DNA from: Loxodes magnus
Taxonomy: Eukaryota; Ciliophora; Karyorelictea; Loxodida; Loxodidae
Assembly (NCBI GenBank): GCA_946699065.1
Contig: CAMPDV010002004.1
Span: forward strand, 31,793-95,792
Direction of reading: 5' to 3'
DNA: 64,000 nt
Shown here: positions 9,291-64,000 of the stretch, one piece after another
How positions within the stretch are numbered: the stretch's first letter is position 1
Layout: every line of letters starts with the position of its first letter
The notes under the pieces: generated by a model
What the model was told of the DNA's origin: nothing
The model's database searches: none
Seen by the model: only the letters and a program-made list of their open reading frames with translations
Made by a program: the position numbers and the translations under genes

Positions 9291-11419
9291 ATGTAATCTG
9301 AAATGTCCTAGACTGCTAAATGTCTTTAGTGTCAAGGAAGTTTCAATGGGTAGATTAAAATCCCAATGTTGTTATCTTGCAATCACAACATATGCTATAC
9401 CTGTGTCCAGGATTAGTTTTAGAAAAGTTAGGCAATCACATGTGTTTACTAAAATTGCTAAAAAGTTCATAAGATCCATCCTATAAATTTACAATAAGAC
9501 ACTTAGTTACTCAAGCGTCTTGAATAAAAGAACCTCATGGGAAATATATCGATGTTATAGAATCAATCGTCAAGAGTTCGTCAAGCTTAAACTTAATTGT
9601 CCAAGGTCTACAGTCTTTTCATCTAGTAGTTGATAAAGCACGTGAGCGCTTATTTGTTTAAGGAGAATATCAGCTTACAAAGACAGTTGATTTAGCAAGA
9701 TAAGTAAATCTAATAATAGTTGAAGTTTTTCAAAATCTAGAAATAGATGATGGACAAAAAAGGAAGCAACTAGTAGTAGATCGTTTGTTAAGAATTGCCA
9801 TAGAATGAGCAATAAGTTTCCAAATTGATAGCTGATGTTTAAAGGGTCATCTAGAAGAACAATCAGGTATCGGTTAAAGTTTTTGAGGAACTAGACTCTT
9901 GCAAGTTTAATCTAGCTTAAGTGACATAGGAAAATAATTACTTGAAGAATGAGATATAAAAGTTGAGTACTTAAATCTAAAATATGTAATAGCAGTTATC
10001 ATCTATGCAAGTTCAGTTAAGCACATAGTAACAAGTAAAGCCTTAAGTGATATAGCCTCAATAAATTCAATAACCTCAAAATATCTCGGCTAAGCTATAG
10101 GACATCTAGATAACTATAGTATCGCCAAACAATAAAACAGCAACTTTATCAGTAAAATAAGGGACAACTATCGGCTAGATAAAGGAATAGATCTATTCAT
10201 AAACTGGTTTATTACCTGAGGGTTTGAGTATCGTTAAGAATAAGGTTATATTGGATGACGGTTAAACAGTAGCGAGTTAAAATTTGTTGAGTGGTGAGAG
10301 GTTGCAAATGGAATTCAGTAAGTTCAATTATAATTTTCTTACAATAATATAGACGGTAAATAGATTTTATAATTTTAATAAAGAGAAAGGTGAGTTTAAG
10401 ATCTACTATATTTAAAAGGATGTAAGTCTTAAATAAATATCAATAATAGGGGGTAAGGATTAATTATAATATTTAGATGGTAAGTTAGCATTTAATGATT
10501 TAGAATGTAAGTTTCATTTTAAATGTTTCGCGATAAGGGTGTAAGTTTCATTTTAATAAATTATTACTTAATTTAGGTAAGTTTCATTTTAATAATTATT
10601 ACTTAATTTAGGTAAGTTTCATTTTAATAATTATAACTAAATTTAGGTAAGTTAAAGTTTAAGGTGAAAATGAAGTTAGTAAGTTAAAGTTTAAGGTGAA
10701 AATGAAGTTGGTAAGTTAAAGTTTAAGGTGAAAATGAAGAATGTAAGTTAAAGTTTAAGGTGAAAATGAAGATGGTAAGTTAAAGTTTAAGGTGAAAATG
10801 AAGATGAGTAAGTTAAAGTTTAAGGTGAAAATGAAGATGGTAAGTTAAAGTTTAAGGTGAAAATGAAGAGTAAGTTAAAGTTTAAGGTGAAAATGAAGTT
10901 GGTAAGTTAAAGTTTAAGGTGAAAATGAAGGGAGTAAGTTAAAGTTTAAGGTGAAAATGAAGATGTAAGTTAAAGTTTAAGGTGAAAATGAAGGGAGTAA
11001 GTTAAAGTTTAAGGTGAAAATGAAGATCGTAAGTTAAAGTTTAAGGTGAAAATGAAGGGAGTAAGTTAAAGTTTAAGGTGAAAATGAAGTAATGTAAGTT
11101 AAAGTTTAAAGGTGAAAATGAAGATCGTAAGTTAAAGTTTAAGGTGAAAATGAAGATCGTAAGTTAAAGTTTAAGGTGAAAATGAAGGGAGTAAGTTAAA
11201 GTTTAAGGTTACATATAGATCGTAATGGTCTATTTTAGGTTGTAAGTATTTTTTTATAGGTTATTTTGTAGATCGTAATGTGTTTAATATTGATTTAGGT
11301 GGTAAGTGTAATGTTATTGTTAATATAGAATGTAAGTAATTTTAACATTATAAGGGGGTAATGAGGTTTTTTAAATAAATATTTAGGATGTAAGGGAATA
11401 ATTCTATGTTATGTAGTGA
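9291..11419 (+). CDS. RING finger, coiled-coil, ubiquitin-like protein with a micro-exon-encoded C-terminus
   Basis: Exon 1 (9291-10317) is one open frame once TAA/TAG are Gln. Near residue 10 it has a RING-type start: CLQCQGSF, LLSCNHNICYTCV, then a further CVYQNC. A long Gln-rich coiled coil follows (residues about 75-255), then a ubiquitin-like fold: QITIVSPNNKTATLSV, TIGQIKEQIYSQTGLLPEG, ILDDGQTVASQNLLSGERLQ, which aligns with ubiquitin from its first beta strand to LxxG-x-x-LxLxL. The frame breaks at 10317 into 35 GT-AG units separated by mini-exons of 1-4 nt. Spliced, they give NGWDEWFIEYDEW then LGMESDNIIGIVIVNGD and TGA at 11417-11419, a Tudor-knot/chromo-barrel-like tail. CDS pieces: 9291-10317, thirty mini-exons, 11417-11419. 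A RING plus Ubl suggests a ubiquitin ligase or adaptor. An alternative simpler model (one 35-nt intron, TGA at 10391) gives a non-conserved tail. A second TGA follows directly, so TGA-TGA could be read through as Trp-Trp. Confidence 0.75.
10541..10675 (+). other. Four intron-like units stacked with no exon between them
   Basis: Units 10541-10576, 10577-10611, 10612-10646 and 10647-10675 abut exactly: each ends in AG and the next begins GTAAGT. The first three share the GTAAGTTTCATTTTAATAA start and end in TTTAG after a TTACTTAAT or TAACTAAAT segment that could serve as branch site; the second and third differ at only two positions. A pair at 10356-10389 and 10390-10418 is stacked the same way. 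They could be removed as one 135-nt intron or one at a time. Confidence 0.6.
10647..11218 (+). repeat. 29-nt intron-unit minisatellite (17 near-identical copies plus one derivative)
   Basis: Seventeen copies of a unit beginning GTAAGTTAAAG and ending AAATGAAG occur at a 30-33 nt period, starting at 10647, 10679, 10711, 10743, 10775, 10808, 10840, 10870, 10902, 10934, 10965, 10997, 11029, 11061, 11094, 11127 and 11159. All are identical except 11094, which has one extra A. An eighteenth copy (11191-11218) keeps the first half and ends in TTACATATAG. Unit sequence is conserved while the 1-4 nt spacers vary, the opposite of what simple tandem duplication produces, and consistent with repeated insertion of one intron sequence or homogenisation of introns between conserved codons. 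Confidence 0.85.
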
Positions 11420-14400
11420 TGAAATGAGAGTGAAGGACTTTACGAACAAATTAAAACTTTACTTAATTAAGAATTAAAAAATATCTATATTTATAATTAT
11501 TATTTTCTAATAAAGGTTAAGTAGTAAGTATACTTTAGTGTAGTTATATATGTATTAATAAGTTTACTCTATAAGTATGTGTTTTTTAAGTGATAATAAT
11601 ATATATAAGTTTACAATTATAAGATAGTTTCTAAGTATTTGTATATTATGTTATTATATATTTGATTACAATTGAGAAGTGTGGTTAACCTTAATGAGAG
11701 TTTGGTAAAGAGTAGTTTAGGAAGTTAGAGTAATAAATAAATATTGTAAAATGACTGTGAAGTGGGTGAGTATAGGTGGATAAAGTTCCTATTATTATTA
11801 AAAGTGTATAATTTAGTTTTTAAAATTTAATTTATTTCTTAGGTTTTAGTTGTAAGTATGCAATATGTAAATAATTTTAGTTTGAATAATTTTAGTTTGA
11901 AGTATTTTATATATTTTAGAATGTGAGTATTAAAGTAAAATTAATATTAGAAGAGTTTTCAGAGTTTCGCAGAATTTAATTTTAAAAGAGTGTTAGGGAG
12001 TATTAGGCATATAAAAATTTTATATTTGTTTTTTTTGTAAGTTACTTAATTTTTTTTTTCGAAAAACTTTGAATTTTATGGGTAGACAATTTTTCTAAAT
12101 TTTTTTTAAGAATTAAGTTTAAAAATTCTTTTATGAATTAAGCTTAAAATTTTTTTTATGATTTAAAGCTGAATTTTTTTTTAAGTTATTTAAGAATTTT
12201 TGTTCGAAAAATTTTGAATTTTAGGTTTTAATTTTTTTTAGATTTTGTTCTATTAGAAAGTTTTTTTAATCAAAGTATCACGTTAAAAAAGTTAAAAGGA
12301 AATTTTTTAAAGTGTCTGAGTATTTTTTTTAGTATTATGTTATTTTTTTTTAGTATTATGTTATTTTTTTTTATTGCATTTGTTTCTTTTATTATTTTTA
12401 TTCTTTGAATTTGTATTTCAAGTATCCAAAATTTCTAAAAATTTTATATTTGTTTTTTTGCTCAGCGTTTTGCACTACAAGAGATTTTCGGGACGGAATA
12501 AATCTTTTTCAAAAATTTAAATTTAAATTTTTTTTAGAAAAGATGAAAAATAAATATTTTTTTTATCGTTTTAAATTTCTTACTTGTTTTTATTTACAAA
12601 CAACTTAAAAGATAAAAAAATATATTTAGAAGGTTGATAAATATTAAAAAAAATGCAATTTTTAGCATAATCATCTTAAAAATATCTAGAATGGTTTTCA
12701 ATGAGTTTTAAATTTACATAAAATATATTTTGCTTACCTAATTTTAAAAAGAATTCGAATGAGAAATAATAATATTCTTAGATTTTTTATTTATTTTTTT
12801 TAAATAAATTTAAGATCTAGTTTAAAAAAAATACGTACTCTGTTTTTGAAAATAAAAATAAAAAAATTATAAATTTTAAAAGATTTAATAATTAAGTAAA
12901 TAGAAAAAACTGTATCTGAAAAATAAATTAAAAACTAAAGCATAAAAAATCTGAATCTATCTAAAATAAAAATATTGCTCTTACTTAATTTAAATTGAAA
13001 ATATTCAGAACTAAATACAAAAAGAACTTTATATCGAAAATAAAAAATAAAACAAAATTAGAATCTTAGTTGAAGTAAAAATAAAGACATTAGTTGTTAT
13101 ATATATAGCTATTTGAAAAAAGATTTTGTTAATCTTTAAAAACGCTTAGAAAATTTTAGATATAGTTACTTTAAAAAAATAGTTTTTTAAATTCGTCATA
13201 AAAAAATTAACATTTAACTATAAACCACTAAGTTAAAGGTAAAAAATCTAAACGCCCTGAATTTAATTGAAATTTTTCATTAAAATATAATGTATCTTAA
13301 TTAAATCTATTATATCTAATATATTATAAAACATCGTTAAAGATTTAAATTTACTTAATTCTCAAAACAAATAAATTACTTAATAAAATGTTCTAAATTT
13401 CTTATAATGGACTTAATGAGAGTAACATATTAAAAATCCTAAATGTAATAGAAACTATTGATTTAATCATAGTTTAAGCATAAAATTATTCTAATTTAAT
13501 CTTTCATAAAAAATAATATATCTATTTTTGATAAAGGTAGATTAATAGAAGAAAATTAGTTCACAGTTAAATTCTCTAAGGTAAATATTTAATAATCTTT
13601 TTATCTTTTAATCAAGATTCTTATGTACTAAATTTTTACAATTTAAATATTTGACTGAAATATAAATTCCAATTTATTTATAAAAGTCTTACTCTACTAC
13701 TGTAATGTTTTAAAACTTAATAGAGACATATAATTAAAAAAATTATAAAATAAAATCTTTAAATGCATTATAAAACTTTAAACTATAATTAAAAAAGAGG
13801 CAAGCAATGAATATTCATAGGAAATTTTATTAACATTTAATTAATCAGAAGTAAATTTTTTATAATAATCATTTATTTATTCTTTTTATCGAATAGTATT
13901 ACAGAAATAGTAATAATGAAAACATAATCTCGAAAAGTATTTTCTCATATTAATTTTATAAATTTATTTAAAATAGCTATAAATAAATATTATTAAATCA
14001 TAAATAAAACATTTAATTAATACTATCTAAAATATTATTAAACTCTATTTAAATAAATTTAATAATAGTAAAAACAAATAATATAAAAGAAGTCTCTAAA
14101 TAAATAGAAATTAAAAATAATTTTCGAACCAAATTCATCAAAATTAAATGAAATTATAAAAAAAGAGTATTTAACAAAATTTTGATAAATTATTAAAAAA
14201 TAAATTATATCTTGATCAGAATTTATAGAATTAATTTTAAGTAAAACTAAGATCAATTTTTATTTAAATCTATAACTTAAAATCTTAATCTAATTTAAAA
14301 CTTCGTTTTAATAAATAAACTAATTTAATAAAAAAAGCAAAAAATCTTTATTGCAAATAATAAGAATTAAGTTATCCTAATTATTTAATAAACTGATGAT

Positions 14401-25739: not shown

Positions 25740-28700
25740 TATTATATAAATAAGAGGGTTATTAAAATAATAATAATGAGACTAAAGTTTAGATAAAGAG
25801 AGTTAGTACTATTTAAAGAATAAGGAAAATAATAATTAGTAGATTATTAAACTAAAAGTATTTCTATTAATTAATATATTAATATATCTTTAATATACAT
25901 CTTAATTAAATTAAACAAAACTTACTTCTTCACTTTAATTCAACAATAGAACATTTAACTGGGACCAATCAAACTTCCAATGCCTTAGAAATTTTAATTC
26001 AAACTTTATCTGCGTCTAAACTAACTGAGAAACTATTCCAAAATTAGAATTGGAGACTTAGCTTATTAAATAAGAATGATTATGATAATTTACAAATAAG
26101 AAAGTTTAAGTCATAATCTAAAAGAAATTAACTGATATTACTAAATTAAAATCTTAAGACTTTAAGGATTTACTGAAGCTATTAGAAACTATTTTTATTT
26201 AAAGAGAAAAACATTTAATTGGGCAGAATAAGTATGAAGCACTTTAAAATATTCGCTGAAAGTAAAATCAAGAAATAAAAAAGAAGAAAGAAGAAAGTAT
26301 TATAATCAGATTAAATTTCATTTAGAGACTCAGAAAAATTTTCAAAAAAAGAAAGGAATGCCTCATTAAATAATAACAAAATTGAATAAAAATAAATATA
26401 GAAAAATAAATTAAGACCATAAAAATTAGCTACAGCTTTCAATTCTATAAATAGAAAGAGAAAAATATAATTTAAGAAAGATATTTAATGTAATAAAAGA
26501 TATAGGAAATAAGACATAGAAAAAGACAACTAATATGAAATCAATCTAGAAAGACAATTTTAATTTTCTCTAGTAAAATTTTGTTAGCATGAACTGATAG
26601 AAAGTGACTGAGGGATTTCTAGCAATTATTTCACAAAATGATTTAAGATATCTTAAGTTTAAATTAGGATTATAAAACTTAGCTTTGAATATTTGCAAAA
26701 AGCTTAAGAAATGTAAAAAAGATTAAATCTAGAATATAAATATTTAACTAACTATATTTAAGTTATTGTTCTTTACAATCTTTAAAATATAAACTTTATA
26801 AATAATAGATAAAAGAAGCACTAACTAATCTATAACTACTAAATACATTTAATAATTGGAAATGTCTCTAGCTAAAATAATAAAGTATTATAATTAAATA
26901 AAGGAAATTAATAATAAAATTAAAGTTAAAAATAATAGCATTAGTAAGCTTATATATGTAAATTAACTAAGGCTAAATAACTAATACTAAGAAGCTTAGT
27001 ATTTAAAAATGAAGTAATAAATGAAATATTCCTTTCTTAAGTTAATCTTAATCAATAGATATCTTATATTACTATAATTACTATTTATTTTAATAGTATA
27101 TTATTTATTTTTACTTATTAAACCACAGTTTCATTAAAATAATTGAATGAACTACATTAGCTAAAAACTATCTTAAAATATTAGAAAGATACTAAAGATT
27201 TTAAAATAAAATATATGAAATACTATGCATGTGCAAGTTAGAATAATTTAATATAAGATTATAGATATAATCACTAATATAACAAATAATTATAAATTCT
27301 TTTACCTCAAGTATTTAAATAGAGTCTTAATTTTGGATATAAGATTTATTAATAGAATCTACAGTTAAACCTTAATTATTTATGTGGTTAGCTCATAAGA
27401 AAGAACTTAAATAAAAATAAGAAATACTTATAAATTTAGAATAACAAACACAAGAATAAAACTTAGAATATTAAAACTAGAATGGTAATTATTATTTCTA
27501 TAGAACTAAGATCTTCCTTTAATTTTAAGATTCTTTTTTATTTAAATATATAGTAATTCAACTAAATAACTTTAATTATCTCTTAACTTTAATATTACCC
27601 TATTAATTTGCTTTAGATGTAATCTAGCTTAATAACTTTTTTAATTCTAGTTAATTTTAAAATTTGAAATAAAATAAAATGGATAATATTCAAATTACAA
27701 CATAGAAACACTAATCTATATCAAAAAATAAAGATTAGCAACCAATTAGAAAATAAAGAAGAGATGAAAGATTGATCTTTCTATTTAAAATAACTAAATT
27801 GATAGAAGATTCTTATTCTATAGCCTATCTGATACTTTTACACTGAAAAAATACTAGGAAAGTTTAATCTAAGTTAAAGAGCAAAAGCTAAAATAGAATT
27901 AGGAAATCTAGAGACTTCTTCAGTGTATTTTTTTCTAATTAATCAAAGATTAAGTTAGCTTTGATCTCCAAGAAAAAAAGCATCTCCTTAAAAGTATAAT
28001 ATTTATAGTATTAAAGATTAGGAAAGCAAATAGATTGGAACTATCTTTCGATCAAAAAATACTTAAAGGCAAAAGGTGATAAGGCCTGAAAATTTTAATA
28101 GGAGTAGAATTAAGTTAATGACTTTAAGATGAGTTAATCTTAGCAAACATTGAAAGAGTCAAAGGTTTTGTCAAACTTTGAGACATTTTAGAAGAGTCTG
28201 GATTTTCCATAGCAATTAAAATTCTGAAAAACACTAAGACTTTCTGTTGATACTAAATTAAACTGAATCTCATTAAGTTCATAAAAAGTAGAGTTTATGC
28301 ATATCTTATAGCAAATAAAGAATACTGTAAGTATTATTTATTTAGATGCTTCTTGAACTTGCTAAGCTTTTTGATCTTAAAAGTTAAGGAGGCTTAGTTT
28401 TATAAAAGCTGAAAAATTAGCAGTTATAAAATCTAATAAGCAATTAAGAGCTGAAAACGGATTCTAAGAGATAATTTATAGCTTAGAAGCAAAATTTAAA
28501 TAAATTTAAAGAGATATTAGAAAAGCAATTCTTTTTTTTAACAAGCTAGACTTCTAGTGTTCTTAATTCTTCACAAGCAATTTTGGAATTTTTAAGATAA
28601 TTTATAAAGTACAGATCTAATTAATAAAGTAGAGAAAGCCTAGTAAAGATAGAGATATTAAAGCTTGGCAGAAAAAATTATAAGTTTAAGCGAAACTTGT

Positions 28701-29800
28701 AAGTTTCTTTGTAAATTCTAAAGAATTAAGAAAAGCAGATTCATGGTGCCGAGTGCTAGGGATAGAATTGATAGGTTGTAATTACTTTAGAACATTTGCC
28801 GAATGTAAATAATCCCTTTATAAATAAGAAGAAGAAAACTCTGTTGTTTCTTTAATAAGCTTTAGAAAAATCTGGATTATGTATTTAGTATAAAAAATAA
28901 AATTTTCCTTGTAAAAATATGGAATAGTCGGTAGCTTTAAATAAGTATCCAAAGATTAAAGCAAACTAAATTGGAAATTTTAACATTCAAACTCAAACAT
29001 GCGCTAATTTTATGCAATTTAATCCTAAGAAATTTTGATTGACAATCCTTAGAAATAAAAGTACAAAAAATGAAAGTAATTGATTAGACTCTAAATAATT
29101 TAGTAGAACTTGAGAACTTATATATTAAAAGATATCCGAAGTTTTACTCAAAAATGACATAAATAACTAAAAATTTCACTAAGAGGAAAGTGTATGGTTT
29201 CTAGCATATCCTGCTAGAAAATCTAAACAAGCGCTCATTTTACTATAAGAATATTCTGGCGTCATAAATGATGACAATTAGTACAAATCTAATAAAGGCT
29301 GTAGAAAAAACTACTTATCCAAAAAATTTATAAACGACAAATTGAGAGCCTTTTAAATGACTGCAACTAAAATAGAGACTTAATTACTAGGAGTGGAAAA
29401 AAATTAGCCACTAACTTCATAAAAAATTTGAAGGGCTCAAGAAGATTAGTAGTAAATAAATCCAATCAAAAGTGTAAAATATAAATCCTATGAAATAATA
29501 AAATCATATTATCCTGGCGCTTCGGTTTTTATAGGGAACTCAGGGATACTTTAGAAAAGTTTTTCAAGAAATTAAAGAAGCATAGTATTTAATCAAAAAG
29601 ATCTTATCAAATATTTTGATTATTTCAGCCTAGCTTAAATTAAATCGAGGTTGAAAACTGCAAAATTAGTTCATCATTTTGATTGAATAAAGCTACAAAA
29701 AATAGTAATTTTACCAAAATTCTAAAAAACTATTTTTAAAGTTACTTGAGAATTTCTCAAAAGAATCATTGAAAGGAATTTTTGGCTTTTGCTAACATTT
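25740..29800 (+). mobile_element. 4 kb repeat element, copy A (plus orientation)
   Basis: This segment is matched over its whole length, in reverse complement, by 38850-42870. Matching landmarks: the GTTAGTACTATTTAAAGAATAAG-type start at 25800 and its complement at 42810; TCTAAACTAACTGAGAAACT at about 26010 and complement at 42590; GCATATCTTATAGCAAATAAAG at 28295 and complement near 40370. Plus-strand frames are protein-like: STIEHLTGTNQTSNALEIL and LKSQDFKDLLKLLETIF near the left end, KLRAENGFQEIIYSLEAKF near 28450. No terminal repeats, transposase or reverse-transcriptase motif could be identified, so the element class is unknown. Confidence 0.6.
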
Positions 29801-38849: not shown

Positions 38850-41800
38850 GGAATTAGTTCTAAAGTTTTAAAGCCAATAGATGTTCTCAAGCAACTTTAA
38901 AGATTTTATTTAAGAATTTTTGGCATGATATTATATCTTTTAAAGCTTTTGCTTTATTCAATTAAAATGATAAACTTAATTTTATATTCTTCACCCCTTG
39001 ATTAATTAAGTTATGACTTAAATTAAATCAAGATATTTTTTAAGGTCTATTTAATTAAGTGACTATATCTCCTTATTTTTTTGAAGGACTTTTTCAAAAA
39101 TATCCCTGAGTTCTCATAAGTAACTAGGCACTAATAATAAAAAATCTTATTATTTCATATGATTTGTTTTCTACTCTTGTTTATTATATTTATTTATTTC
39201 TAATATTCTTGAATCCTCCAAATATTTTAAGGAGTTGGTGTCTAATTTTTTTCAATTCCTACCAATTTAGTCTTTATTTTAGTTGCAGTCGTTTAAAAAT
39301 CGCTAAAACAGTTTATTATTATTTTTTTGCTTCAATTTAGCAAATTTTTCTGCAATACTTATTAAATTTGCACTAATTGGCACGCATCCACCTAGCCAGA
39401 ATATTCTTATAGTAAGCTGAGTATTTGTTTTAGATTTTTTAGCAAGATATATTAGGAACTGTGAATTTTTCTTTAAGTGAAATTTTGTAGATATTTATGT
39501 CTCTTCCTAATATAGTTTCAGATATCTTTTATCAGATTAACTCCCAAGCCCAACTAAGTTATTTAAAGTAGTTTTCTACAATTTTTCTTAATTTTATTTC
39601 TCAATAATCTGAAATCAAAGCTTCTAAGAATTGCATAAACTTAACTTTCATTTAAGTTTGAATCCTAAAAGTTCCAATTCAGTCTACTTTAATTTTTGGG
39701 TGCTCAATTAGAGCTACTGATTACTCAATATTATTCAGGAGAAGTTAATTTTTTATTCTAAATAAATAATCCAGATGCTTCTAAAGTTTATTTAGGAAAC
39801 TATAGGGTCTTCTTCATATTTATATAAGGACTATTTCAGTCGGTAAATGTTCTAAAGTAATCAATCTAACTTTTTAAAAACTATCGCTATTCTTTCTAGA
39901 ACTCAGTTCCGTGAATCTGCTTTTTTAATTCTTCAGAATTGACTAAGAAACTTATGATTTTCACTTAAGCTTATAATTTTCCTTTCAAGCATTACTATCT
40001 CTAGTACTTGCTAAGCTTCTCTCTTTTATTAATTAGAGCTGGACTCTATATATTATCTTACAAATTCTAAAATTAATTGTGAGGAATTAAGAACACTTGA
40101 AGTCGAGCCTGTTAAAAGAAAAAGCTTAATTTCTAATATCTATTTATAGGTACTTAAAATTTAGCTGCCAAGTAATATTTATCTCTTAGAATCTGCTTTA
40201 AAGTTCGTAATTGCTTTTTAGATTGAATAGCTGCTATTTTTTTCAGCTTGCTATAGAGCTAAGTCATTTGAACTTTTAAGATCTAAAAGCTTGGCATGTT
40301 CTATAATAAAAAGGGATTTTTCTAGCGTCTAAATAAATAATACTTACAGTATTCTTTTGTTATAAGATATGCATAAACTCTACTTTTTAAGAACTAAATG
40401 TGACTCAGTTTAATTTAGTATTTGTGAGAAACCTTAGTTTTTTTTCGAAATTTTGACTGTTATGAAAAATTCAGACTCTTCTAAAAATGTCTCAAAGCTT
40501 GATAAAATTTTAGGCATTTTCAATGTTTGCTAAGATTAATCATCTTTTTGTCACTGAACTATTTCTGCTCATATTAGAAGTTTCAGATCTTATCCTTTTT
40601 ACCTATTCTTATTTTTTGATTGAAATATAGTTCCAGAATTAATGTCTTTTGCTACTCTTTATTACTATTAATATTATAATTTTAAGGAGATTCCTTTTTT
40701 TCTTGGAGATAAAAGCTAATTTAATCTTTTATTAATCAGAAGCAAATACGCTGAAAACATCTCTTGATTTCCTAATTCTATTTTAGCTCCAGCTCTTTTT
40801 ACTTAGATTGGGTCTTTCTAATATATTTAATTGCAAAACTATCAGATGGACTATAGATTAAGAATCCTCTATCAATTTAGTTATTTTAAATAGAAAGATT
40901 AATCTTTCATCTCTTCTTTATTTTCTAAATATTTGCTAGTCTTTATTTTTTCTGTGGATTAGTGTTTCTATGTTGTAATTTGAATAATATCCATTTTATT
41001 TGATTTTCGAATTTTAAAATTAACTCAAACTAAAAAAGTTATTAAGCTAGATAACATCTAAAGCAAATTTTTAGAGTAATATTAAAGTTAAGAGATAATT
41101 AAAGTTATTTAGTTGAATTACTATATATTTGAATAAAAAAGAATCTTAAAATTAAAGGAAGATCTTAGCTTTATAGAAATAATAATCACCAATCTAGTTT
41201 TAATATTCTAAGTTTTATTTTTGTGTTTTTTATTCTAAATTTATAGTATTTCTTATTTTTATTTAAATTCTTTCTTATGAGTCAACCACATAAATAATTA
41301 GGCTTAACTGCAGATTCTATTAATCAATCTTATATCCGAATTTAAGACACTATTTAAATACTATAGGTAATAAATTTTCGTTGTTTGTTATATTAGTAAT
41401 TATATCTATCATTATTTCATTTAATTATTCTAATTGTGTATCAAGCATAGTGTTTCATATATTTTATTTTAAAATCTTTAGTATCTTTCTAATATTTTAA
41501 GATATTTATCAGCTAATGTAGTTCATTCAATTATTTTAATGGAAATATAGTTTATAAGTAAAATATAATATGCTAATAAAATAAGTAGTAATAATAGTGA
41601 TATAAGATATCTATTGATTAAGATTAACTTAAGAAAGGAATATTTAATTTATTAGTTACTTTTAAAATACTAAGCTTCTTAATAATAGTTATTTAGTTTT
41701 AGCTAAATTACATATATAAGCTTACTAATGCTATTATTTTTAACTTTAATTTTATTATTAATTTCCTTTATTTAGTTTTAATACTTTATTATTTAAGCCA

Positions 41801-42870
41801 TAGACATTTCCTTATAATTAAATGTATCTAGTAGTTATAGATTATTTAGTACTTCTTTTATCTATTATTTATAAAGTTTATATTTTAAAGATTGCTAAGA
41901 ATAATAATTTAAATATAGTTAAATTAAAAATTTATATTATGGCATTTATCTTTTTACATTTCTTCAGTTTTTGCAAGATCCAAAGGTAATTTTTATAATT
42001 TCCTAATTTAAACTTAAGATATCTTAAATAATTTAGTAAAATCATTGTTAAAAATCCTTCAGTCACTTTCTATGAGTAGATGCTAACAGAATTTTACTAG
42101 AGAAAATTAAAATTGGCTTTCTAGATTGATTTCATTTAGCTGTCTTTTTCTATGTCTTATTTCCTATATTTTTTCTTACATTAAATATCTTTCTTTAAAT
42201 TCTATTTTTTCTTTCTATTTATAAAATTGAAGGTTTTAGTTCATTTTATGGTCTTAAGTTAGCTTAATTTATTTATTTTTGCTAATTTTTTAAATTATTT
42301 AATGAATTATTTCTTTTCTTTTTATGATGATTCCTTTGGATCTCTAATTAAAATTCAAAATATTTGTAACACTTTCTATTTGTTTATTTATACATCTTAG
42401 ATTTTGCTTTTATCGAATATTTTTAGTGCTTTATATTTATTCTGCTCAATTAATTCCTTTTTTCTTTCAAATTAAAATACCTTCCAATACCTTCAGTAAA
42501 TCCTTAAAGTCTTAAGATTTTAACTTTCTAATATCTATTAATTTCTTTTAGCTTTATGACTTAAACTTTCTTTTTCCGAATAGTTTCTCAGTTAGTTTAG
42601 ATGCAAATAAGATTTTAATTAAAATTTCTAAGATATTAAAACTTAGATTACTCCGAATTAATGATTTGTAATTAAAGTAAAATAGTAAGTTTAGTTTAAT
42701 TTAATTAAGATATATATTAAATTAAAGATATATTAATATTCTAATAATAGAAATACTTTTAGTTTAATAGTCTACTAATTATTATCTTCTTTATTATTTA
42801 ATAATACTAACTCTCTTTATCTAAACTTAAGTCTCATTATTATTATTTTAATCAAACCTTTATAAATATA
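38850..42870 (-). mobile_element. 4 kb repeat element, copy B (inverted relative to copy A)
   Basis: Reverse-complement match to 25740-29800 with substitutions and small indels throughout. On the minus strand the protein-like frames correspond to copy A: KLTEKLFGKRKFKSQSQKK and KLKSQDFKDLLKVLEGIL near 42500, EHAKLLDLKSSNDLALQQAE near 40290, NKYSAYYKNILARWMRANQC near 39400, FIILIEQSKSFKRYNIMPK near 38970. The two copies preserve the same coding strand, which supports a real (mobile or duplicated) coding unit. About 9 kb separates the copies; a DNA transposon, a retroelement and a segmental inverted duplication all remain possible. Confidence 0.6.
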
Positions 42871-48142: not shown

Positions 48143-49176
48143 TCATATGATTTTAACTTCAGAAAGTGCTGAAGTTAATCAAGGATTTTTTAGTATTTTC
48201 TTGACATTCGGTCGTTTGCTAGAGTTTAATACAAGCATTCTATTTATAATAGCCTTTGAAATTTCGATCAAGTATTCTCCTAATGTAAAATCACCTTTGA
48301 TAATCTAACTGTAAAGCTCTTTGCCGTTTTTCCTCTGAAAGAGATAAAATCCATTAAAGCTGACAAAAATAAGTACTCTAATCGCTCAAATATATTCTTG
48401 TAAGCCGCTATGCTCTTTATCTCCAATTACTTAAGGTGACATATAACTAAAAGGGCATCAAAACATTTCTACCTTCTAACCAGGTGGAATTTTTGTTGAA
48501 AAGCCAAAGTTAATAAGTTTGACGCCTAACTAATAATCCGATTTATTGTTCTAAAGCAGAAAATTTCCTAGTTTAATATCTCTATGCGCAATGTTTAAAT
48601 CATAGCAATAATCCAGAGCTTATAGCAGCTACTTAATTATCATTTTTGCGATTTCTTCTGGAATCTGCGTTTAGTTTGTTTTTGAGAAATGAATACAATT
48701 CAGGTCCATCCATATATTTAGTTACCAGATTATTTGCTTATTTTAACTAACTACCTCTTATAGCTTCGCTATGTTAGGATACTTTAGCTTTTGTAGTACT
48801 AAAATTTCTCATTTACTGATTTCATTCTATGTGTATCCATAAGCTTAAACTTTTCATATACTTTTATAGCCACTTTTTGTTCACTATACTTGTTTTTTCC
48901 ATAAATCAGAGACGCATAAGCACCACATCCAATTAATTTCCCTAGGCAGTAGTTATTTAGTGAGATTTTTCTCCCTGTAAAATTGCTGAAGGATTTAGAA
49001 TCAGCTTATATAACTTATTTATCAGCTGGTTTTTCTTTCTCTACTTCATTGTTCTGAGCAAAATTTAACTGCCTCATATTGTATATTCCTGGATTATTTT
49101 TTCTTTTATTATCTTCTTCTAATTTTGAACAAAATACTTTGCTTAGATTTAATTTGTTATATTTGATAGGAGACAT
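48143..49176 (-). pseudogene. Serine/threonine protein kinase, probably inactive
   Basis: ATG at 49176 (MSPIKYNKLNLSKVF), TGA at 48143-48145. After an 85-residue N-terminal extension the kinase domain shows a glycine loop LGKLIGCGAYASLIYG, the ATP-lysine in KVAIKVYEKF, EILVLQKLKYPNIAKL, catalytic loop IAHRDIKLGNFLLQNN, then NFG in place of DFG (VKLINFGFST), MFWCPFSYMSPQVIG (activation and P+1 loops), EYIWAIRVLIF, and KRPNVKKILKNPWL. TGA encodes the conserved Trp in FWC, YIW and NPWL. Three single-base frame changes lie between the glycine loop and the catalytic loop, and the metal-binding Asp is Asn, so it is likely a pseudokinase or pseudogene, unless the indels are sequence errors. It resembles CAMK/SNF1-type kinases. 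It lies 75 bp downstream of the next minus-strand gene. Confidence 0.7.
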
Positions 49177-59114: not shown

Positions 59115-60312
59115 AAACCTAATTAAAATAAAAATTAATTTAAGTAAAATTGATTTTAATATAAATAAAATTTAATTTAAGTAAAACTGATTTTAATATA
59201 AATAAATATAAATTTAAGTAAACTAATTTTAATTTAAAGAAAATAAAATTTAAGAAAAACTCATTTGTATTTAAATAAAAATTAAGTAAAACTGATTTTA
59301 ATATAAAAAAAAATAAATTAAGATAAACTGATATTAATATAAATAAAATTAAATCTAAGTAAAACTGATTTTAATTTAAATAAAATTTAATTTAAGTAAA
59401 ACCGATTTTAATATAAACAAAATTTAATTTAATTAAAACTGATTTTAATTTAAATAAAATTTAATTTAAGTAAAACTGATTTTAATTTAAATAAAATTTA
59501 ATTTAAGTAAAACTGATTTTAATTTAAATAAAATTTTATTTAAGTAAAACTGATTTTAATATAAACAAAATTTAATTTAATTAAAACTGATTTTAATTTA
59601 AATAAAATTTAATTTAAGTAAAACTGATTTTAATTTAAATAAAATTTTATTTAAGTAAAACTGATTTTAATATAAACAAAATTTAATTTAATTAAAACTG
59701 ATTTTAATTTAAATAAAATTTAATTTAAGTAAAACTGATTTTAATTTAAATAAAATTTAACTTGAGTAAAACTGATTTTAATTTAAATAAAATTTTATTT
59801 AAGTAAAACTGATTTTAATATAAACAAAATTTAATTTAATTAAAACTGATTTTAATTTAAATAAAATTTAATTTAAGTAAAACTGATTTTAATTTAAATA
59901 AAATTTAACTTGAGTAAAACTGATTTTAATTTAAATAAAATTTTATTTAAGTAAAACTGATTTTAATATAAGCAAAAATTTAATTTAATTAAAACTGATT
60001 TTAATTTAAATAAAATTTAACTTGAGTAAAACTGATTTTAATTTAAATAAAATTTTATTTAAGTAAAACTGATTTTAATATAAACAAAATTTAATTTAAT
60101 TAAAACTGATTTTAATTTAAATAAAATTTAACTTGAGTAAAACTGATTTTAATTTAAATAAAATTTAACTTAAGAAAAACTGATTTTATTTTAAATAAAA
60201 TTTAATTTAAGTAAAACTGATTTTATTTTAAATAAAATTTAATTTAAGTAAAACTGATTTTAATATAAATAAAATTGAATTTAAGTAAAACTCATTTTAA
60301 TATAAATAAAAT
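59115..60312. repeat. Minisatellite, about 37-nt unit, about 30 copies
   Basis: Tandem copies of a unit containing GTAAAACTGATTTTAAT and TAAATAAAATTTAATTTAA run for about 1.2 kb. Variants alternate in blocks (ATATAAACAAAATTTAATTTAATT versus ATTTAAATAAAATTTAATTTAAGT), giving a higher-order repeat of about 110 nt in the middle. Units are contiguous with no codon-sized spacers, unlike the intron array. Edges are more diverged than the centre. Confidence 0.9.
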
Positions 60313-61019: not shown

Positions 61020-62430
61020 AATAATAATTCTATTCCTGTCCTACTTTCTCATCTATATGTTGCTTGCTTCACAATCACTCAATCTCATTCCATAGGGAGC
61101 ATATACACTATTCCAATCCAACTACTTTATTATTAAATTAATTAAATTGACACCTACCTATCCTACAGATTAATCAATACTTAACAACCTCTATACATTC
61201 CATCTTCTCAAGTAGCCACATACATCTCCAGCATAGATTCATCTTGAATCCTTTGATAATGCCTATGAATATATTGCATATTCGTGACCATTCAAAGTTA
61301 ATACATACTAACCAGCTGAAAAAGACCATATCTTTATGGTTGAGTCACGAGATGCTGATATGATATATCTAGAGTCCAAGGAGATTACTACCGAGGTAAC
61401 AATAGAAGCATGTTCCTCTAAAGTTCTCAGGAGAGTACCATTAGAGAAATTTCAGATCTTTATGGTTGAGTCAACAGATGCTGATACTATATATATAGAG
61501 TCAAAGGAGATTACTACCGATAAAATAGAATCAGTATGTCCCTTTAATGTTCTCAGGAGAGTACCATCAGAGAAGTTTCAGATCTTTATGGTTCTGTCAG
61601 GTCAGGCTGAACCTGATACTATATATCTAGAGTTAGAGGAGATTACTACGGAGAAAATAGAATCGGTATGTCCCTCTAAAGTTCTCAGGAGAGTACCATC
61701 AGAGAAATTCCATATCTTGATTGTTTTGTCACGAGATGCTGATATGATATATCTAGAGTCAAAGGAGATTACTACCGATCTAACATAAGAAGTATGTCCC
61801 TCTAAAGTATTATTAAGGCAGATGTTTAATAATCTCAGATCTTAATTTTTCATCACCTGAACCAGTGATGATATAATGATTGTCTGGAGAGATAGCTATT
61901 GAGTCGATGCTGTAGGAATGACCTCTAAGTTCATGAGGATACTCAGTTGCTATATCGGAAAGATTAGCATTACTCAATACACAACCGATAAACTTAGTGT
62001 TTCTTTAATTACATTGATGGAAACTTGAATTAGAGAAATCACATTCAGTAAATGTCATGTCCGATAGATCTGCTTGCACTAATCTCATGTCGGAGAAATT
62101 TTATTATGATGCAAACTTAACATTCAGGTAGTTAAGTATCGTTATCACATTCGATGATAACTACGATACTTCCTATAATGATCTAGATAAGTCTAACATC
62201 TAATTTAATTTATCAGCCAGTTATTAATTAGATACCCTAGATAACTATAATAAGACCGATGTCTAAAGGGTTAAGCTTGAGTGATTTAAAGGATGTTACT
62301 TCAAATATTAGATATCAATATTTTGTTGTTGTATTAGTTGGTCTAAAATTTGAATTAACTATTCGAATGTTAGAGTATTGAAATTCACTAAGGCTTATTT
62401 TATCAAGTTTGGCTGCTCTTAAAGTTATTG
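61020..62430 (-). pseudogene. Pentapeptide-repeat plus WD40-repeat protein, decayed
   Basis: The minus strand begins with pentapeptide-like repeats (KLDKISLSEFQYSNIRIVNS; then FSDMRLVQADLSDMTFTECD, FSNSSFHQCNQRNTKFIGC, VLSNANLSDI) and continues into WD40 repeats: YPHELRGHSYSIDSIAISPD, NHYIITGSGDE, then at least five units of the type TLEGHT-(10)-SVVIS-DSRYI-SASRD-TIKIW-F-GTLL. TGG and TGA alternate at the IKIW Trp, which fixes TGA=Trp. The last units (LNGHEYAIYSQALSKDSRW, IYAGDVCGYLRRWNVQRLL, DWNSVYAPYGMRL) use TAG/TAA as Gln. One-base frameshifts occur after GSGDE and before TLEGHT, and GSA-TGA-PDRT carries a 3-nt duplication. This is the sensor half typical of ciliate NACHT proteins, here without the ATPase. 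Confidence 0.7.
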
Positions 62431-63600
62431 AACTTAAAAGTTCTATTACTCAAACTTAAGTTCAATAATATGTTAAAGTAACTGTTAATCATTACTTTAT
62501 AGAGTTCTTGAAACTTCTTGGTATATATTAAATTTAGATTAGTCTTTTTACATTAGTTACTCTTAAACTTATTATTTGTCTTAATTTTAGTGTCTTAGGG
62601 AGGCTTAGTCTTAATATAAGTATTATAATTATTGATTTTGTTATATACCTTATGAAGATCCTATACTTGTTCTTGTTGGGACAACTTTTATTATTATTGA
62701 CCTTGACATAGACCACTTATTACATTTTATTAACTGAAATAAGATTCTATGAACTAACAAGCTTTTTACTGAGTTAATATCTAACACTATGAATGATCTC
62801 TCAGAAAATTGAAGGCATTTAAGAGATAATACTGAATATTGTATCGCAAACCTTAATTATTCAAATTTAAATTAGATTCTTACTTTATCACATTGATTTC
62901 TCTTAAGATATCCGTAAATTACTACTATTATTCTTATAGCTAATACTGATTTGCCTGCTGGTGTATATGCTAGCGCTATTACTATTATTATTGAATATTG
63001 AGTTCCGATAATCGATTCAGTAAACTCTTAATCTTATTCGCTCTTTAAGAATATTATTCTATCAAGATCTTGAATATTCATTTAATTACTTACTACCAGA
63101 TATTATTCCACTATTTACTAACACCATTGATAACATTCCTTATAAACTATAGCTGCTCTTATTTCTAATTCTATTATTCCTATAACCGATCGAGTTATTG
63201 ATTTAACCATACTTAATTCAATATTTGATGGTGCTGATGCAACTAAGGCTATATTGGTTATTATACCATATAGTTTTGTAGATCCTAAGGCCTGATGTTA
63301 AACATTTTAGCATGATTTGTACATGCGACCATTCTCGTAAATTAACATACTGTATTTAAACAGTTGAAACATTAAACACAGTTGCAAGAAAGTTGCTTGG
63401 CTTAAAACTAAGCTTAATCGAAAGCATTTCTACAGTTAGGACACTGTTACATATCCATTTATAAAAAATAAAATTAGTTTTAGTATTTAGAAACTAATTA
63501 CAATGAAATAATAATTAAAATATTTAAAATTTAATTATTAAATTTAATTTATTAATAAAATACAAACTAATAAAGATTAATTTCTCTTAAAAATGAGGAA
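62431..63600. other. Unresolved, coding-like on both strands
   Basis: The segment has less extreme base composition and gives plausible peptides on both strands (plus ITDRVIDLTILNSIFDGADA; minus QIVEQYLVVSNQMNIQDLDR). It may be the beginning of the minus-strand repeat protein, or a separate beta-helix-like fragment on plus. I could not decide between them. Confidence 0.25.
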
Positions 63601-63717
63601 AAAGAGATGGTTTATACCCAAAATAAGGGGACCAAATCACAAAAGATGGGCTCTCCTATCAAAAATCTGAAAAGATAAAATAACTTTAGGTAAGAGATAC
63701 TGAATCTCCAATCATCG

Positions 63718-64000
63718 AGACGAAGCCCGGTGTCGTTATTTATTGTATCTACCTCAGGATTGGGTAATTTACGCGCCTGCTGCCTTCCTTAGATGTGGTC
63801 TCTCAGGCTCCGGAATTGAACCCTAATTCTTCGTTACCTGTCACTGCCATACTAATCCAATACCATCGAAAACTGATAGGGCAGAAACTTGAATGACCTG
63901 CCATGCTTCATGGTCCTTATGTATTATAATTCTCACACAAACTAAATATCTAATAAACATTTTGCATGTATTCTAGAATTACTACGATTATCTAACACAC
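63718..64000 (-). rRNA. SSU (18S) rRNA 5'-domain fragment, degenerate, runs off the window
   Basis: The minus strand reads, from the window end inward, the universal SSU order: CGTAGTAATTCTAGA..ATACATGC, TTTCTGCCCTATCAGTTTTC, GATGGTATTGGA, GAATTAGGGTTCAATTCCGG, CACATCTAAGGAAGGCAGCA, GGCGCGTAAATTACCCAATC, CTGAGGTAG, AATAACGACACCGGGCTTCG, ATGATTGGA, and then leaves the SSU sequence at about 63718. Compared with the universal sequence, invariant stretches are missing: GCTA after TCTAGA, about 6 nt in CCGGAG-CCTGAG, about 6 nt in GAGAGAC-CACATC and about 7 nt in CCTGA-GGTAG. These would destroy helices, so this is a non-functional rDNA piece. Confidence 0.85.

Follow-up and report, generated by a model that had tools for sequence, protein, structure and literature searches.

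The 64,000-nucleotide (nt) stretch of Loxodes magnus DNA analysed here (the window; positions 31793-95792 of contig CAMPDV010002004.1, or C2004, in the searched assembly of 705,730,643 bp) contains a gene in which a long first exon on the plus strand is followed by an array of very short intron-like units, mostly separated by three nucleotides. An earlier sequence-only reading had described this array as thirty codons delivered by micro-exons of 1-4 nt across 35 tiny introns. An independent parse of 10318-11416 into GT..AG units, the ends of which are required by the parser, matched its 35 units and 30 non-empty spacers, including the odd lengths 4, 1, 2 and 4, and confirmed that the array ends at the TGA at 11417-11419. 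The gene consists of the following features:

9291..10317, plus strand: exon 1, encoding a probable RING, coiled-coil and ubiquitin-like protein (Pfam, genomic matches and dN/dS; coiled coil by eye)
10317, plus strand: last base of exon 1 (A), position 1 of a split codon at a phase-1 junction
10318..10352, plus strand: intron 1, 35 nt, GTAAG..TAG (parse; 35-42 nt among relatives, not in steps of three)
10353..10506, plus strand: conserved head, with micro-exons ACG, (AGAAAG at 10384-10389 or zero length), GAT, GGG, ATG and AAT and their introns (parse, 51 loci)
10507..10646, plus strand: 31-nt intron followed by micro-exon GGT (10538-10540), then three units of 35-36 nt with zero-length spacers (AG/GT) (parse)
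10647..11190, plus strand: putative hypervariable codon-cassette array of 29-nt units, 16 of them exact and one carrying an additional A; spacers TTA TTG AAT ATG ATGA ATG A TTG GGA AT GGA ATC GGA TAAT ATC ATC GGA (parse, family statistics)
11191..11416, plus strand: conserved tail, with introns of 28, 17, 30, 24, 27, 23, 29 and 27 nt and micro-exons ATC, GTT, ATC, GTG, AAT, GGG and GAT
11417..11427, plus strand: start of the last exon, TGATGAAATGA, in the family phase T/TG ATG AAA TGA = Leu-Met-Lys-stop
11417..11419, plus strand: the last exon in the shifted frame of the window copy, an immediate TGA
11428..11500, plus strand: probable 3' untranslated region, similar among relatives apart from indels whose lengths are not multiples of three (51 loci, last exon, first 60 nt)

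Of the non-empty spacers in the window array, 26 are exactly 3 nt long and the others are ATGA, A, AT and TAAT, with four further junctions of zero length; a parse that penalises each extra unit fuses some of them and yields 26. The same exact 29-mer occurs in 16 units (mean of 0.00 in 100 shuffles), and the units flanking this block on both sides are not copies of the 29-mer, yet follow the same grammar. The longest chain of GTAAG/GTAAT/GTGAG/GTAAA..AG units at exact 3-nt spacing comprises 11 units; outside the array, chains in the window reach 2 (plus strand) and 3 (minus strand), and no chain in 200 Markov-resampled windows exceeded 3. No enrichment of GTAAGT was found within the window outside the array, as would suit an isolated oddity, a view that was overturned by the genome-wide search for the 29-mer.

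In the whole assembly, the exact 29-mer occurs 6078 times (4312 on the forward and 1766 on the reverse strand; reversed control 0 + 0), largely within a family of genes encoding probable RING-type, ubiquitin-like (RING-Ubl) proteins. The common three-prime end of this family is present at 108 places (61 and 47 by strand), and exon 1 gave 118 scored genomic matches out of 2175 first-look candidates; 107 of the 118 cover residues 1-342 (manual count) and 8 contain one TGA. The exon-1 relatives are 65-75% identical by the tool's count, an underestimate because the window's own copy scores 85% when TAA and TAG are not read as Gln, and some of the family rows are perhaps duplicate contigs of one locus (L053 equals L035). 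The array is not unique, being carried by at least a hundred gene copies; the earlier claim that no gene with a comparable run has been described stands for the papers found by literature searches, but not within this genome. The 29-mer is strand-asymmetric while the gene ends are near-balanced, which hints at one or more very long arrays.

Under the standard code, the longest open reading frame in the 64 kb does not exceed 158 amino acids, and long frames appear once TAA and TAG are read as Gln (table 6); Pfam domains are present in some of them, including the frame holding 9291-10317, which then carries a ubiquitin domain. According to the main text of its genome paper, L. magnus uses table 27, in which UGA is a stop, or Trp far upstream of the poly-A tail (PMC11441545). 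The Pfam ubiquitin model scored 25.9-26.2 bits on exon 1 of the window against a cut-off of 25.4; among three relatives it scored 22.6 and 24.5 bits in two and gave no match in the third, and the best RING model, at 20.3-24.3 bits, remained under its cut-off of 25.2. A protein database search with exon 1 returned 779 candidates, none at E <= 0.001, and among viral contigs the 29-mer was unmatched and no relative of exon 1 was encoded. Exon 1 is under purifying selection, with a median dN/dS of 0.37 (253 pairs from 23 loci); these were 23 of the 29 loci with enough upstream sequence, six being set aside for an in-frame TGA upstream of the exon-1 end.

The anatomy of the array was compared among 62 loci of the same genome (L009-L070) and the window. 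Of these 63, four were not parsed (L020, which is not a copy of this gene; L044, which is cut; L058 and L067, which are without the exon-1 end motif) and eight were duplicates (seven refetches of one place and one second contig), leaving 51 copies. The loci were in listing order, not random; L001-L008, short pieces of the C41 array covered by L009, were excluded; and 50 of the 108 three-prime ends were examined (L021-L070), the other 58 only where covered by other loci.

Of the 1683 spacers in the 51 copies, 1557 are 3 nt long, 115 have zero length and 11 measure 1, 2, 4 or 6 nt, and a length-neutral parse gave 1552 spacers of 3 nt and 58 of 6 nt with the same frames (45/51). The copies hold 20-56 introns and 17-51 three-base exons, and introns make up 91% of array length. 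The commonest intron length is 29 nt (796/1734), and 1718 of the 1734 introns are at most 40 nt long. With both ends required by the parser, 1730 introns start with GT and 4 with GC, and all end in AG (582 TAG, 1112 AAG, 40 CAG). Independently of the parser, the next GTAAG begins 3 nt past 534 of 563 exact cores (51 loci). Among 726 core-like 29-nt units, non-modal bases amount to 1.1% per intron position, compared with 49, 62 and 58% at the first, second and third spacer bases, and the boundary of variation falls abruptly at the GT and the AG. Because ordinary tandem duplication copies core and spacer alike, this contrast needs another explanation. The spacer alphabet is small, comprising 28 triplets, 8 of which account for 639 of the 726. 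These family statistics support the earlier notion of coding micro-exons, each roughly a codon long, with tiny introns between them.

Judging from these sequence comparisons, the window gene is probably a member of an L. magnus family encoding a RING-type, coiled-coil, ubiquitin-like protein whose C-terminal tail is assembled from spliced single-codon exons, which could act as recombinable codon cassettes. The pre-mRNA would be spliced by intron definition at 20-56 introns; as these are mostly 17-38 nt long, splice recognition would have to operate across introns. Each phase-1 micro-exon would contribute a single residue to the stretch that links an aromatic head with the tail YREWGL[MR][KS]-stop, and zero-length junctions could represent the two-step removal of a longer intron. 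The introns account for most of the array, are near-identical where it is variable and have a common phase. Through recombination or slippage between introns, whole codons could therefore be added, deleted or swapped without frameshift, giving rise to a hypervariable peptide. The protein might be of the ubiquitin-ligase type with a variable recognition tail, in which the aromatic ends could hold a recognition loop, and the tail may serve self/non-self recognition or keep parasites or mobile elements in check.

The last codon of exon 1 is split after its first base (..ATG GAA TTY A/GTAAG), and in this phase (phase 1) 45 of the 51 copies are in frame, with a summed spacer length that is a multiple of 3. 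Peptide statistics for head, middle and tail were obtained from the 44 copies without odd spacers. The phase-1 head reads N (43/44), mostly G/R/W, W (43), D/N/E, A/E/D, Y/F/W (41) and then most often W (26), and is followed by a variable middle of 4-31 triplets and a tail of the form Y-R-E-W-G-L-[M/R]-[K/S/N]-TGA. Within this tail, Trp, Gly and Leu are present in 44/44 copies, Tyr in 43/44 and Glu in 41/44, as is the stop in 44/44, though the search pattern and end motif demand that TGA. In L016, a 3-nt deletion in the last exon leaves the stop intact. In the middle, UGA occurs 0 times in 705 codons in phase 1, compared with 64/749 in phase 0 and 59/705 in phase 2; column shuffles led us to expect 18.0 +/- 3.8 in phase 1 (minimum 7 in 300). 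Similar to the published pattern of Trp-encoding UGA in Loxodes, phase-1 UGA is found in 0/834 codons that lie no more than 20 codons before the last exon and in 8/487 farther off, all eight lying in the head at least 23 codons before the last exon.

Among the 51 copies, variation in the tail exons AAT (.013), GGG (.000) and ATC (.060) is below that of every tail intron interior (.084-.191), and that of the tail GAT (.090) is comparable to introns and consists of T/C changes only. In the head, GAT (.026) is the sole exon more conserved than the intron interiors (.089-.133). An AG lies 6 nt upstream of the head GTGAG in 51/51 loci, and another immediately upstream of it in 50. Normalised amino-acid similarity of the tail is.889 in phase 1 and.874 in phase 0.

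The middle arrays of different copies are scarcely more alike than shuffled ones (0.42 vs 0.39), even though the silent divergence of their first exons is as low as about 0.18. L029 and L064 are identical at 898 of 899 positions upstream and 618 of 627 downstream, yet differ by one clean nine-codon block; similarly, L019 and L039 contain 34 and 47 introns despite 2 substitutions and 2 gap columns in approximately 1400 downstream bases. Both differences would be the pattern expected of recombination or slippage between identical introns in steps of whole codons. Adjacent codon-block repeats were considered as a sign of slippage and rejected, as their occurrence in 14/51 copies is within that of order shuffles (mean 8.0, maximum 15). 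L020 (C91:612000-620000) contains one exact unit and a neighbour outside any recognisable gene copy, and cassettes can therefore presumably move or be left behind.

Several observations weigh against the spliced, phase-1 interpretation. The final stop and the exon-1 junction are partly built in, because the fetch pattern and the start and end motifs require them. Repeat blocks of three or more codons number 4, compared with a shuffle mean of 1.2 and a maximum of 5. The absence of UGA from the phase-1 middle is partly due to the small triplet alphabet, and exon-order shuffles expect only 1.06 such codons; the distance pattern of UGA is not independent of position, as all eight lie in the head. 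An in-frame TGA is present in the final 93-276 nt of exon 1 in 6/29 copies, where it may be Trp in the Loxodes code. No spliced copy of the tail was found in the genome (0 matches, control 1). Furthermore, most array units are longer than typical L. magnus introns, for which the L. magnus genome paper reports in its main text a mean of 19.3 bp, a mode of 17 and 93% at most 25 bp, alongside 15-16 bp in heterotrichs (PMC11441545), though length alone does not exclude splicing. The remaining objections concern frame and conservation: 6/51 copies, the window copy included, are out of frame; tail exons GTG (.139) and TAT/GTT (.330) are not less variable than introns; and the head exons ACG (.293), GGG (.175), ATG (.181), CAT (.233) and ATT (.331) exceed them. 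For phase 1 and phase 0, respectively, pS/pN is.131/.053 and.155/.027 in the tail and.135/.188 and.408/.131 in the head, and normalised head similarity is.603 and.642.

The latter values fit a different reading of spliced one-codon exons, in which each micro-exon is itself a codon (phase 0; T-D-G-M-H/N ... I-V-N-G-D-stop) and TGA within the array is tryptophan. In this phase the excess of pS over pN is strongest for both head and tail, several conserved exons show wobble-like third-base changes (ACN, GGR, GAY, ATY), and UGA can encode Trp in Loxodes. Because exon 1 stops after the first base of a codon, phase 0 would call for a +2 that is not seen, and its TGA triplets peak 10-14 codons before the end (24/220), contrary to the published depletion. 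The third bases are also distributed unfavourably for it, since those of the head GAT and tail GGG are invariant while those of the head GGG and tail GAT vary. The third base of GAT is variable in 0/51 copies in the head, where it would complete a Trp codon in phase 1, and in 8/50 in the tail, where T/C changes retain Leu (p.003), and for the third base of GGG the counts are 20/51 (head) and 0/50 (tail; p 2e-7), both p values being nominal because the copies are related. Finally, the sixth head exon (GGT/ATT/TTT) would encode G/I/F in phase 0, as opposed to W/Y/F in phase 1, where residue 6 is Y/F/W in 48/51 copies; swaps among AT, TT and GG stay aromatic only in phase 1. Overall we consider phase 0 unlikely, and phase 1, given splicing, very likely.

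Alternatively, the array could be non-coding, with self-amplifying intron-like repeats after exon 1 that are retained, skipped whole or placed behind an early stop. Great differences in array length and order among copies, the six frame-shifted copies and the finding that only one of the six head exons is more conserved than introns would suit such repeats. However, the variation of the cores ends exactly at GT and AG, the tail codons are conserved in frame with exon 1, and exon 1 itself is under purifying selection. Retention would require a read-through frame, which is not conserved because intron 1 varies from 35 to 42 nt, and skipping the array whole would require a 1.1-kb intron, far beyond the L. 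magnus range. We regard a non-coding array as improbable.

Many ciliates excise short segments of DNA, and the units could in principle be internally eliminated sequences removed at the DNA level, as the sequence-only reading had considered. The array is, however, present in an assembly inferred from its matching size to be the macronuclear (somatic) genome of L. magnus, the units have GT..AG ends, and no pointer repeats were seen by eye. Macronuclear and micronuclear assemblies of 706 and 848 Mbp have been described, and neither canonical excised segments nor excisases were detected in L. magnus according to the main text of that paper (PMC11441545). DNA-level removal is thus extremely unlikely.

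The window copy itself departs from most of its relatives. Its odd spacers ATGA, A, AT and TAAT sum to 2 (mod 3) in the exon-1 phase, and it closes at an overlapping TGA in another frame than most relatives; in L016 and L065, one odd spacer likewise shifts the frame by 2. This corrects the earlier statement that the frame holds to the stop. The window copy may be decaying, or may be tolerated through two overlapping stops in the last exon.

This shift also bears on the proposal that the window copy encodes a Tudor-knot/chromo-barrel segment, NGWDEWFIEYDEW plus LGMESDNIIGIVIVNGD. Its second half is in the shifted frame, as is the second conserved Trp that was assigned to a TGA, although table 27 permits UGA as Trp and the codon itself is not absurd. 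The end of exon 1 together with the tail matched an MBT model below threshold (E 0.0078; 16.8 bits, cut-off 22), and the best PDB match was a xylanase (E 0.12), followed by MBT proteins (E 0.19-0.98). The 30-residue tail alone had no match in Pfam, Tudor, MBT and chromo models matched 0 of ten tested in-frame paralogue tails (out of 44), and most relatives end in YREWGL. This proposal is already mostly refuted, and we consider it very unlikely.

The grammar of the array extends beyond the exact 29-mer. GTAAGT-N10-30-AG-NNN chained three times gave 5480 + 4247 matches in the genome (reversed control 0 + 0), which overlap and include the RING-Ubl family. The same search located further arrays with 3-nt spacers at:

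C2:2786117-2786624
C5:20821-20952
C10:232572-232788
C12:392984-393085 and 964558-964835
C62:34231-35072

Among the matches listed, the C2 array has a 28-nt core, GTAAGTTGATTGTTAGATTTAAAAAAAG, with spacers CGA, AAT, TGA and CCT, and the C5 array has four consecutive unlike introns with spacers AAT, GGA, ATC and AAT; the introns of both are quite unlike those of the RING-Ubl family, and those on C10 and C12 are partly similar. We tentatively propose a genome-wide codon-cassette system, which is conceivable though somewhat doubtful, in which the RING-Ubl family and possibly other families would write hypervariable peptides one residue per exon, with homogenised introns as recombination handles.

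Outside the gene and its array, the window contains several other features:

25743-29469 / 39180-42870: large inverted duplication; along most of it, identity is approximately 65-95% in each 100 alignment columns, and 1-nt indels are numerous; its inside may be decayed coding sequence (by eye)
48268-49060, minus strand: protein-kinase-like sequence (by eye), probably a pseudogene, in which single-base frameshifts are apparent and NFG replaces DFG
59120-60312: 32 tandem copies of an AT-rich 37-bp repeat
61312-62400, minus strand: gene with pentapeptide and WD40 repeats (Pfam), with at least one frame change between the repeats (by eye)
63559-64000, minus strand: divergent eukaryotic small subunit ribosomal RNA fragment (103 bits), cut by the window end; possibly an rDNA pseudogene

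Custom gene-finder models of the window contained many doubtful introns and were dropped.

If transcripts confirm splicing of the array, the lower limit of exon size would be used systematically in L. magnus, in runs of 17-51 one-codon exons that exon-definition models cannot handle and that ordinary RNA-seq mapping probably misses. It would also represent a new route to protein variability, in which introns buffer every codon and permit residue-by-residue change without frameshifts, and the evolutionary use of introns would become testable within one gene family with approximately a hundred natural variants. A codon-cassette system, if true, would provide a recognition repertoire able to evolve or even to vary clonally, in its logic comparable to V-region diversification but at the grain of single codons.

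Schistosome micro-exon genes, with exons of 6-81 bp and long introns, share with the L. magnus family many small, frame-neutral exons per gene and a proposed role as a source of protein variation, but are not known to have runs of 3-bp exons or identical introns. The aphid bicycle genes likewise form a large, fast-evolving family with micro-exons; these are larger, and the introns are not known to be homogenised cassettes. Papers found in literature searches on micro-exons, single-codon exons and Loxodes showed isolated exons of 1-3 nt and arrays of larger exons, and no comparable run. In its main text, supplements excluded, the Loxodes genome paper contains neither 'microexon' nor 'micro-exon'; RNA-seq reads were mapped with Hisat2 and introns annotated up to 40 nt (PMC11441545), and mapping of this type would be expected to miss chains of 3-nt exons. 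The array introns resemble the spliced introns of L. magnus in being very short and GT..AG, but mostly exceed their 17-nt mode. Isolated micro-exons of 1 and 3 nt in Arabidopsis (PMC4674806), Drosophila homothorax (PMC7392893) and Fusarium CYP621A (PMC12940212), as described in these reports, indicate that exons of 1-3 nt can be spliced, with one per gene as opposed to 17-51 in a row. A further likeness is to leucine-rich repeat (LRR) genes of Tetrahymena, another ciliate, in which tandem exons also have one exact length (90 bp) and a uniform intron phase (phase 2 for >96%), the introns ranging from tens to hundreds of bp, and for which clonal expansion and exon shuffling have been proposed to produce variable genes, as presented in PMC6564038. 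In contrast to those exons of about 30 residues, the exons in Loxodes measure 3 bp, lie in phase 1 between introns of approximately 29 bp, and would confine variability to single residues.

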